From contig JAUYKE010000012.1 in the NCBI GenBank assembly GCA_030700125.1, positions 1-33,448 on the forward strand: a stretch of DNA of 33,448 bases, given 5' to 3'. The notes beneath the pieces are model-generated. The model did not search any database. It saw nothing but the letters and a program-made list of their open reading frames with translations, and was not told the origin of the DNA. Origin of the DNA: Candidatus Colwelliibacteriota bacterium (GTDB lineage: Bacteria; Patescibacteriota; Minisyncoccia; UBA6257; Colwellbacteraceae). The position numbers and the translations under genes are program-made. Every line of letters begins with the position of its first letter. Position 1 is the first letter of the stretch. Shown here in pieces: positions 11,327 through 18,865 of this stretch.

Positions 11327-12689
11327 TCCCGGTATTTTCAAGGCCTACGATATCCGGGGCATCGTTCCTGACGAACTCGATGAAAAAGGAGCATATTCCA
11401 TTGGCCGTGCCTACGCCCAATTTTTAAAAAAGAAATCCAGTAGCGAGAATCCAACAGTCGTTGTCCAGGCAGATGCCCGCCATTCCTCCCCTGCCCTCAA
11501 GGAAGAACTAGTAAAAGGACTACTCGCCGAGGAGATACAAATTATTGACGGCGGACTTGCTACGAGTCCCCTTATCCACTTCGCTATAAATGACACAAAA
11601 GCAGACGGTGGAATAATGATAACCGCTTCCCACCTTCCCCCTCCCTACAACGGCTTCAAGTTGTTTACTAAGGGCGCAGTTAATATCGGCGCCGGAGTCG
11701 GCATGGAAGAAATTAGAGATTTGGCACTGGCCATCAATCCTAACCCAGCCCCCATTTCAAGCCGTCCAGGAATCGAAAAAAGAAATTTCGAAGATGATTA
11801 TCTGAAATTCATTTTAGACAAAATTGATGTATCAAGAATAAAACCTTTCAGGATTGTAATTGATGCCGGTAATGGGATGGCTGGACTCCTGCTTCCAAAA
11901 CTGATTGAGAAATTACCGATAGAGGTCACGCCACTCTTTTTTGAAGTAGATATGACTTTTCCGAACCACGAAGCCAATCCCCTTATAGAAGAAACTCTCA
12001 AGGAGCTCCAAGATAAAGTAAAAGAAGTTGGCGCGGATTTCGGGGTGGCTTTTGACGGCGACGCCGATCGAATCGGCTTCGTAGACGAACAAGGACAAAT
12101 CGTTCGAAGCGATTTTGCCGGTGCCTATCTCGCTGAAGAATGGTTTTTAGAAAAAGAGCCGAGAGCGAAAATAATTTATGATATCCGCTCAAGCCTCATC
12201 GTGCCAGAGATCATCGAAAAAGCTGGTGGGAAAGCTATCCAGTCTCGAGCCGGGCACACTTTCATTAAGCAGTTGATGCGAAAAGAAGAAGCCGTCTTTG
12301 CTGAAGAAAGATCAGGGCACTTCTATTTTAGGGATTTCTTCTATTCGGAATCTGCTTTGCTGACTTTTCTCTATCTTCTCGCCGCCCTCTCAAAGACAGG
12401 TGAGAAAATGAGTACCATTATCGACCGCCATAACAAATATTTTGCCACTCCAGAACTTAACTTCACCGTCAAAGACCGCTCGCCGGAAAGATTGAAGGAA
12501 ATCGCCGAGCATTTTGCTGATGCTAAAGAGATAAAATGGCTTGATGGCTTATCTATCGCCTACGACGACTGGTGGTTTAACCTTCGGTCAAGCAACACCG
12601 AACCCTTAATACGCCTCATGATCGAAGGCAGAAATCAAGCAATTGTTAACGAAAAACTAGAATTATTAAAACAACTCATCTTAAGTTGA
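11319..12689 (+). CDS. Phosphomannomutase/phosphoglucomutase
   Basis: IFKAYDIRGIVPDEL, TASHLPPPYNGFK, FGVAFDGDADRIGFVD, LRSSNTEPLIRLMIEG; ATG at 11319 overlaps the preceding stop by 8 bp (listed TTG 11301 less likely). Confidence 0.93.
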   Translation: MLNPGIFKAYDIRGIVPDELDEKGAYSIGRAYAQFLKKKSSSENPTVVVQADARHSSPALKEELVKGLLAEEIQIIDGGLATSPLIHFAINDTKADGGIMITASHLPPPYNGFKLFTKGAVNIGAGVGMEEIRDLALAINPNPAPISSRPGIEKRNFEDDYLKFILDKIDVSRIKPFRIVIDAGNGMAGLLLPKLIEKLPIEVTPLFFEVDMTFPNHEANPLIEETLKELQDKVKEVGADFGVAFDGDADRIGFVDEQGQIVRSDFAGAYLAEEWFLEKEPRAKIIYDIRSSLIVPEIIEKAGGKAIQSRAGHTFIKQLMRKEEAVFAEERSGHFYFRDFFYSESALLTFLYLLAALSKTGEKMSTIIDRHNKYFATPELNFTVKDRSPERLKEIAEHFADAKEIKWLDGLSIAYDDWWFNLRSSNTEPLIRLMIEGRNQAIVNEKLELLKQLILS

Positions 12690-12761
12690 GCCACCTCGCG
12701 GATTCGAACCGCGGACCTTCACTTTACGAAAGTGCTGCTCTACCAACTGAGCTAAGGTGGC
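12690..12761 (-). tRNA. tRNA-Thr (anticodon CGT)
   Basis: Reverse complement GCCACCTTAGCTCAGTTGGTAGAGCAGCACTTTCGTAAAGTGAAGGTCCGCGGTTCGAATCCGCGAGGTGGCT folds as a cloverleaf; 3' CCA not encoded. Confidence 0.95.
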
Positions 12762-14712: not shown

Positions 14713-14786
14713 TGGAGCGGGTAACGGGAATCGAACCCGTGTCTCAACCTTGGGAAGGTCGCATTCTACCACTGAACCATACCCGC
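14713..14786 (-). tRNA. tRNA-Gly (anticodon CCC)
   Basis: Reverse complement GCGGGTATGGTTCAGTGGTAGAATGCGACCTTCCCAAGGTTGAGACACGGGTTCGATTCCCGTTACCCGCTCCA; CCA encoded. Confidence 0.95.
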
Positions 14787-16857: not shown

Positions 16858-16872
16858 AGTTCATTAACTTTA

Positions 16873-17022
16873 GCCCAGCACCTTGCTGTCGTGCGGAAGC
16901 TCTCGGAGCCCCGACGGGCTTGGTCTTCGACGAAGTCGGAGCCGTCGGGGCGAGAGCGCAGGGCGGCTTCGGCCGCTGGAGCTGAAGAACGCCCGGTTCC
17001 GTCAGACAGTAAGGTGCTGGGC
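16873..17022. other. 150-bp GC-rich, highly structured element (ncRNA, leader or palindromic mobile element)
   Basis: Terminal 18-bp inverted repeat GCCCAGCACCTTGCTGTC / GACAGTAAGGTGCTGGGC (one G·U), plus GCTCTC/GAGAGC, GCCCCGAC/GTCGGGGC and GCGGC-TTCG-GCCGC arms. Confidence 0.8.
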
Positions 17023-17026
17023 AATC

Positions 17027-18865
17027 TCATTCCTTGACTAGAGTGAGTTCTAGTATCAATCGAGCAGGTATTGTATCACTCTTATAGACGAAGGTCGAGC
17101 CGTTACTCTCCTGCCACCTAAATCCCAACGGAGCCGCAATCTCGTATTCAAGCTTCGATTCCACCCCCGACTGCTTATCAATAATTACGCGGTACCGGAC
17201 TCCATCCGCTAGAGAAAGTTGAGTGCTTTTGTAGTCCATCTCTAAGGTCTTCGACTCGCCCGGCAGAATGCTAAACCAAGTGGCAAAAACATTTTTTCCG
17301 GATTCTAAGTAAGTTTCGGTACTGTATTTGGTTATATCTTTTCTGGTTCGTTCAATCGATTCTAATACGGGATCTACAGAATAATCGGCGATAGAATAAT
17401 TAATCTGCGGATGAACATTCTTAGGAGTCGATCCTTTTAGAGAGACAAGCTCTGCGTCGGGCATCGTAAAAATCTTGATGAAATTCTGGTTCTGGGCACG
17501 ATACCACGAAGCTTCATCACTCCTGCCAAGATGGCGTCGACTCACAGTCAAGTGATTATTAACCCGACCGGTTGAATCAATCTCAGATTTCAGCTTAATT
17601 GCCTGATTAACCCTAGCGTCGGTTTTTCCCCCGGCAACATTAACATTTACTACTGCCAGGTAATCACCGCTCTCCGGTAAATTAGCTACTTCTCCCGCCC
17701 AACCGATCTTCCTTGCGAAATCCTCCGCTTTTGATTCATTAAAATAAAACTGAATATCTTTATTGATTGCCCGAGCCAAGAAAGCAAAAGCTAAAGCATT
17801 TTTATCCGAGTCATTTAACTCGTTAAGGCGACTGGTTAAAAGCGGGGTTAAAGCACCTAGCACCCTTTTTGGATTCTCGCCCGGTTTTTTATCCCGGCCG
17901 ACCTCGACTTCCCGCTGAATCTCTTCCAAAAAATTATCCTTAGTTAAAGTGAGGCCGTATTCCGGAAGCTTAACCGGGCCGGTAATCTCCAAGAGATCTT
18001 CAATAACTTTGACGTTCAGGGCTACTACTCCATCGAACTTGACTCCCTCTTTAGCATAAATATCCGAAGCCTCGAGCAGTTCAATTGTTTTTTGGGCCGA
18101 AGTTGGGAAGTCAAAAAACCAAGCGGCGTCTCGCGCTCCCCAATCTACCGTCACCGTTTGGAGATGGGTCGGCGGCACTATTTTCTTCGTGAGAAATCGA
18201 TCTGGATAGTAGATATCACTAACTTTAATTTCTTTAACACTACCGCGCGTGAGCACTACCTCGCCATAACTACCGGCAAACCCGCCAATCGGCCTCATCT
18301 CCGAGGGATTAAGAAAAAGCACAAGAAAACGCTGCTCTCCCGGCTTATCTAAAAGCGCTATTAAAGCATCAAGCCCATCACTCGCAGTGCTTAAATTAGA
18401 CTGCACGAGAAAACTAGCCCTTAGTGCATCGAGCTTTGAAACATTCGCCTGCAAGCTTTTAAGAGTAGTAATTAGCTCTTCGCCTTTGCCGTTGAAAGCG
18501 AAATTAAAACCCTCGGCTTTCAATGTATTGATGTCAGAGCTAATACCCATTAGAGCGCCGATTAGATCTTTGAGCTCACTAAATGTTTGAGGAAAGTCGC
18601 TTGCGGCAATCCCCGATCCCAATTTGTCCTGTAATAGGAAGCGAGCGCCAAATACCAACGCGATTAAAGCCAGAGCAACCACGAAGACAGCTAGTAATGG
18701 TTTTTTCAGCTCCTTCCCCTCCACCCTTGGGGACCGAACGGCCTTGTCCTGAGCTTGCTTGCCCCGCAGTGAGCTCTGCTCTACTGCTTGGGGCCGAATC
18801 GGTCGAACGGGCTTAACGTCGTGAAGGGTTGAATTAATTCGTTTTTTAAAATTTGGTTTTTCCAT
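17027..18865 (-). CDS. DUF4012 domain-containing membrane-anchored protein
   Basis: 612 aa; single N-terminal TM; RFLVLFLNPSEMRPIGGFAGSYGEVVLTRGSVKEIKVSDIYYPD, VDWGARDAAWFFDFPTSAQKTIELLE. Confidence 0.85.
   Translation of the reverse strand: MEKPNFKKRINSTLHDVKPVRPIRPQAVEQSSLRGKQAQDKAVRSPRVEGKELKKPLLAVFVVALALIALVFGARFLLQDKLGSGIAASDFPQTFSELKDLIGALMGISSDINTLKAEGFNFAFNGKGEELITTLKSLQANVSKLDALRASFLVQSNLSTASDGLDALIALLDKPGEQRFLVLFLNPSEMRPIGGFAGSYGEVVLTRGSVKEIKVSDIYYPDRFLTKKIVPPTHLQTVTVDWGARDAAWFFDFPTSAQKTIELLEASDIYAKEGVKFDGVVALNVKVIEDLLEITGPVKLPEYGLTLTKDNFLEEIQREVEVGRDKKPGENPKRVLGALTPLLTSRLNELNDSDKNALAFAFLARAINKDIQFYFNESKAEDFARKIGWAGEVANLPESGDYLAVVNVNVAGGKTDARVNQAIKLKSEIDSTGRVNNHLTVSRRHLGRSDEASWYRAQNQNFIKIFTMPDAELVSLKGSTPKNVHPQINYSIADYSVDPVLESIERTRKDITKYSTETYLESGKNVFATWFSILPGESKTLEMDYKSTQLSLADGVRYRVIIDKQSGVESKLEYEIAAPLGFRWQESNGSTFVYKSDTIPARLILELTLVKE

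Follow-up and report, generated by a model that had tools for sequence, protein, structure and literature searches.

A 150-bp branched hairpin on the plus strand of the window (the whole stretch of 33,448 nucleotides analysed), at 16873-17022, is in our assessment probably a copy of a mobile, non-autonomous DNA palindrome of ~150 bp that inhabits Parcubacteria-type (CPR) genomes. The family apparently lacks an earlier description, and the most fitting label for it seems to be a new Parcubacteria family of structured, palindromic mobile elements; a literature search of sources other than subscription papers and preprints did not find it described in CPR bacteria. The initial annotation of this DNA had offered three readings of the hairpin: a new ncRNA family, a cis-regulatory leader of lepA and a MITE-like palindromic element. 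The last of these is supported by the dispersed, multicopy and strain-polymorphic occurrence of the element, by nested insertions and by empty sites.

Structure of the element and conservation of its fold

The minimum free energy of the element is -107 kcal/mol, as against a mean of -67.2 (sd 4.35) for dinucleotide-shuffled sequences (z = -9.1), and none of 200 shuffles folded as low. Read 5' to 3' on the folded or sense strand (plus throughout), this A-type copy (16873-17022) is closed by the outer stem P1, which pairs GCCCAGCACCTTGCTGTC (16873-16890) with GACAGTAAGGTGCTGGGC (17005-17022), and by P2, which pairs CGGAA (16894-16898) with TTCCG (16997-17001). The 5' side of the long arm inside them is composed of P3 (GCTCTCG, 16899-16905), a conserved 3-nt bulge GAG (16906-16908), P3b (CCCCGACGG, 16909-16917) and a conserved 7-nt bulge GCTTGGT (16918-16924; consensus GCTNGGT). 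The arm is capped by the apical hairpin P3c (16925-16941), variable in sequence and length, and returns through the 3' sides of P3b (CCGTCGGGG, 16942-16950) and P3 (CGAGAGC, 16951-16957); all nine pairs of P3b show covariation. The second arm, P4 (16961-16994), contains two covarying helices and a conserved loop CGCTGGA at 16974-16980 (consensus CGCNGGA). The location of the element, its 18-bp terminal stem, the CGGAA/TTCCG stem, the long arm with its apical hairpin and a second GC-rich hairpin had all been proposed from the letters, and all appear in the fold. The proposed GCGGC-TTCG-GCCGC hairpin is modified: a GC-rich hairpin does lie there, but it is better drawn as the longer P4 arm with its conserved loop.

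The neighbouring genes had been named correctly. The DUF4012 gene (PF13196; 17027-18865, minus strand) abuts the element with its stop codon (17027-17029, minus strand), 4 bp from the end of the P1 3' arm, and the next gene on the minus strand is lepA, encoding LepA (PF06421; 15103-16857). Two ordinary tRNA genes are found elsewhere in the window, also on the minus strand (12689-12761 and 14716-14786). The gap between the two flanking genes, 16858-17026, is nearly filled by the 150 bp, if not wholly filled as was first stated. This filling of most of the space before lepA speaks for a cis-regulatory leader of that gene. However, since both flanking genes are on the minus strand, a transcript that enters lepA contains the element as its reverse complement; moreover, no association of the homologs with lepA was observed, the other copies adjoining or interrupting unrelated genes. 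A leader function is therefore barely credible.

An Rfam search, a covariation analysis of homologs and a genome copy count had been suggested as checks. In Rfam, the window element matched no family at the gathering threshold, its E<=10 list holding only matches far below gathering scores; at permissive thresholds, the element and 19 loci gave only tRNAs and sub-threshold matches. A likeness of the strings GCATGGTC and CTCGCTGG to the HDV ribozyme was dropped because the helix order differs.

The fold of the family is conserved by covariation. For 12 cores aligned by MAFFT, unfitted to structure, RNAalifold yielded 28 pairs, 20 of them with compensatory changes. This unfitted alignment agrees with that of 75 copies fitted to a covariance model, in which 97.1% of cells are paired, 25 of the 30 pairs contain double changes, double changes occupy 686 cells (188 in shuffles), and covariation reaches a score of 0.833, compared with 0.10-0.14 for slid partners. 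The conserved unpaired motifs of the family are the GAG bulge, the GCTNGGT bulge and the CGCNGGA loop. Non-Watson-Crick cells are rare, with GU exceeding AC both in the core (47 vs 17) and in the outer stem (117 vs 65); the strand read as sense is thus probably the one whose folding matters, either as RNA or as single-stranded DNA.

To the extent that the fold is conserved, covaries and has no Rfam match, the proposal of a new ncRNA family holds. The strong covariation, the conserved unpaired motifs and the excess of GU over AC on one strand all favour a structured RNA family with a host function (a trans-acting ncRNA, or a 3'-UTR element for processing or stability) that was dispersed by duplication. 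GU accounts for just ~2% of paired core cells, however, which we judge low for an RNA family, and the genomic distribution described below also bears on this explanation.

Distribution, subtypes and genomic sites of the copies

The genome from which the window comes (G000; 555 kb in 41 contigs) has further copies at 99%, 96% and 69% identity and a solo left end; a covariance model built from eight copies finds nine, and the genome copy count is thus at least nine. Three more A copies in this genome have the outer stem of the window copy. The R1 core match in the window copy spans 16896-16999 (E 6e-23). BLAST identified matches to the core in other genomes of the order, each folding alike with a different outer stem. 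Within the order, 125 of 244 genomes have a covariance-model match at E<=1e-3, and copy number ranges from 0 to 23; the highest counts per genome, 22-23, come from a set of 17 genomes with every candidate scored. A class-wide draw of 384 genomes gave 70 with a match at E<=1e-6, of which 50 are in other orders (best 2e-19), and 11 of 380 genomes matched in a phylum-wide draw, nine of these being listed only as 'same phylum'; with 10-16 candidates scored in each genome, the large scans give minimum counts. The motif also occurs in two named MAG records, Candidatus Jorgensenbacteria and Candidatus Wolfebacteria, which identifies the host as a Parcubacteria-type CPR lineage. Three exact-pattern scans of viral contigs and blastn against plasmid and phage records returned no match.

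A second subtype, B, contains the same motifs in the same order as A (TCTCGGAG, GCATGGT, CGAGAG, CGCTGG) on different stems. Its copies in G000 (C16:10644-10767, C16:12797-12920, C25:50023-50149 and C32:1950-2074; loci L023, L032, L027 and L029) are bounded by CCAATATCTCTTC...GAAGAGATATTGG, and their core motifs are homologous to those of the A element. The two subtypes are nested in each other: A copies lie within B copies at an identical internal position at several loci, and B copies lie within A stems in G000. Further GC-rich palindromic types, recognised as neither A nor B, occupy similar sites (L244, in the tRNA-guanine transglycosylase gene of G161; L125:6100-6350; L189:5300-5480); an example from that enzyme is ...CCCCGTTAGAAATATCCCGCCC...GGGCGTGATTTCTAACGGGG.

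After removal of near-duplicates, 102 copies were classified by position, with mechanical ORF calls and a locus sample that favours high-scoring copies. Copies adjoin unrelated genes, often a few bases past the stop codon: the right end abuts the stop codon of a converging gene in 24 copies; the three remaining boundary types account for 3, 4 and 6 copies. Integron attC sites were considered because of the hairpin form and the position after stop codons, and no R' box was recognised by eye. Of the tandem intergenic copies, 39 run antisense to both neighbouring genes and 15 run sense (p = 0.0015). The frequent location directly past stop codons is a further point in favour of a structured RNA with a host function, whereas the antisense preference indicates that the folded polarity is not the mRNA. 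The range of 0 to 23 copies within one order, the in-frame copies in enzymes and the nested copies also argue against it, and we regard this explanation as unlikely.

About one quarter of the 102 copies are located within long open frames, many of which are real genes. The in-frame hosts include tRNA-guanine transglycosylase (Tgt), MnmA, a NifS/IscS-type cysteine desulfurase and ParB, as well as RF2, FolD and a phosphoribosyltransferase. In ParB, the N-terminal linker holds in-frame copies in two families of the order (L081:2726-3901; L132:372-476; L169:15156-15260). For Tgt, a match was obtained in 28 of 42 genomes of one family, and in 15 of the 28 it is split at residues ~107-116 with the frame open; by eye, the element accounts for nine of these 15 inserts, one of them decayed, and other sequences for the remaining six. 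Within the genus g104, G138 has an uninterrupted Tgt, and the element is present in that of G139 and of G141. The orientation and reading frame of the inserts vary between genera. Among intergenic copies, 1.12 of three frames are open on the sense strand and 1.57 on the antisense strand versus 0.43 in composition-matched shuffles; the element is thus poor in stop codons and unusually readable. The insert peptides matched no Pfam model, and NCBIfam reports the host enzymes only. The Tgt genes of G159 and G160 (L239, L240) have in-frame stop codons (two TAA, one TGA) and look like decaying genes. Interruptions in the sample are most frequent in Tgt, MnmA and cysteine desulfurase, three enzymes that all serve tRNA modification; this may reflect chance or bias.

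Outer stems, empty sites and a possible mode of movement

The genomes G151 and G152, 92-98% identical where aligned, have many copies in common and carry different elements at other shared sites. At two loci of G152, 100% identical cores sit on unrelated outer stems, and among 18 paralog pairs with core identity >=80% the mean stem identity is 0.46 versus 0.40 by chance. Orthologs retain their stems, one with a compensatory change (L121/L160). Near-identical cores on unrelated stems of ~20 bp imply that the moved or converted unit is the core and that the stem is locus-specific. The A copies of G000 share a stem, so a larger unit can spread too, and the window copy probably spread together with its outer stem. 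A rule whereby the outer stem invariably moves together with the core was rejected; it is true in G000 and contradicted in G152.

Six occupied/empty pairs, a small sample, were available from a comparison with G148, a genome of the same genus, and none of the six showed a direct target duplication. For L168:5598 and L182:10211, the empty site already has one of the two stem arms, and the second arm is an inverted copy of it; the same pattern is probable at L120:1569. At L179, L192:908 and L130:591, the stem is largely missing from the empty site. Our hypothesis is that the target may be copied in inverted form at insertion, a pattern that deletion of one arm in G148 would mimic exactly. In some lineages, the N-side arm in Tgt codes for residues similar to those of the uninterrupted protein (FP motif), consistent with the opposite arm being the inverted copy. 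If the native arm were invariably the 3' one, empty sites 1, 3 and probably 5 would be accounted for; no such fixed polarity is claimed here, because in-gene copies are inconsistent as to which arm is native. A separate comparison, of L168:4309-4528 in G152 with G148:C11:9382-9404, revealed a clean ~220-bp insertion missing from the relative, which starts GGCTTGGTATGCATTTCC and recurs elsewhere in G148 (76% over 170 bp); it is apparently a separate repeat family.

The outer stems could alternatively be intrinsic transcription terminators, with the core as decoration or cargo in the loop. Several copies do have a T-tract directly past the outer stem in the gene direction (e.g. TTTTTTATTATT, TTTTTTGTTG; L182:13202), but other copies, including that of the window (AGTTAATGAACTAT), do not. 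In L124/L165, a separate terminator-like hairpin stands intact downstream of the insertion; in-gene copies carry the outer stem as well, and the target at empty site 3 is not a hairpin. We consider the terminator explanation improbable. The notion that every outer stem was a terminator hairpin before insertion is rejected as a general rule by L124/L165, by the copies that lack a T-tract and by the empty sites.

As to the agent of movement, hairpin DNA with conserved unpaired bases in many intergenic copies would suit a REP/IS200-type element mobilised by a Y1 (RAYT/TnpA) transposase. However, the Y1 transposase domain PF01797 was not found in G000, G050, G017, G048, G064, G152 and most other high-copy genomes, and it was found in some genomes without element copies, which makes such mobilisation highly improbable. 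Reverse transcriptase was likewise not detected in G000, G017, G151, G152 and others, many high-copy genomes among them. Both enzymes occur in some low-copy or zero-copy genomes, and they were rejected as general partners since their presence does not track copy number. A retron or other retroelement RNA is not supported either, carriers including G000, G017, G151 and G152 being without a reverse transcriptase.

We favour a mobile element that would be selfish DNA, surviving because it is harmless at gene ends and readable inside genes. A putative enzyme acting in trans would recognise the folded strand and move the element. More tentatively, insertion might copy 15-20 bp of the target in inverted form, giving each new copy a locus-specific outer stem (fold-back copying). 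The complete scheme, in which the folded strand integrates, the adjacent 15-20 bp of target are copied inverted and recognition and movement concern the multibranched core, is one possibility that we advance with reservation; to our knowledge, no described bacterial transposable element uses such a mechanism. Given the strength of the fold conservation, the fold might conceivably also have a host function at the RNA or DNA level.

Significance and comparison with known repeat families

CPR/Parcubacteria genomes are held to be minimal, yet in many of them a single structured mobile element is present in as many as about two dozen recognisable copies, even inside tRNA modification enzymes. If our interpretation is true, odd inserts of ~50 residues in Parcubacteria proteins would be explained, 'protein-coding palindromes' would not be peculiar to Rickettsia, and the family would offer insertions that differ between strains, where a possible inverted duplication of the target is directly testable.

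REP/BIME sequences with their RAYT are likewise structured intergenic palindromes. REPs measure 20-40 bp (PMC3733652); the present element is several times longer and multibranched, and most of its carriers are without a Y1 transposase. MITEs and ERIC-like enterobacterial repeats are short, non-coding and multicopy, have inverted-repeat ends and are sometimes intragenic with open frames (PMC10969869; PMC2759123). The element resembles them in each of these respects. It differs from MITEs in having no direct target duplication in the six comparisons, with an inverted copy at two instead. As to a partner transposase, the Y1 transposase and reverse transcriptase families were ruled out as general partners. 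With regard to MITE terminal inverted repeats, the A copies of G000 do share a stem, whereas the G152 paralogs with near-identical cores do not.

Rickettsia palindromic elements (RPEs) are ~150 bp long, palindromic and multicopy, and are found both between genes and in frame in unrelated conserved genes (PMC10969869). The element described here is also a palindrome of ~100-150 bp with many dispersed copies, some of them in frame in conserved protein-coding genes. The hosts differ, and the inserts of the element match no Pfam model, with NCBIfam naming the host enzymes only. The element is characterised by a class-wide covarying multibranched core, a locus-specific outer stem, abutment on stop codons and an antisense bias. 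We know of no mobilising enzyme for RPEs. By analogy, the element would work as RPEs do, and we make no claim that it belongs to them.
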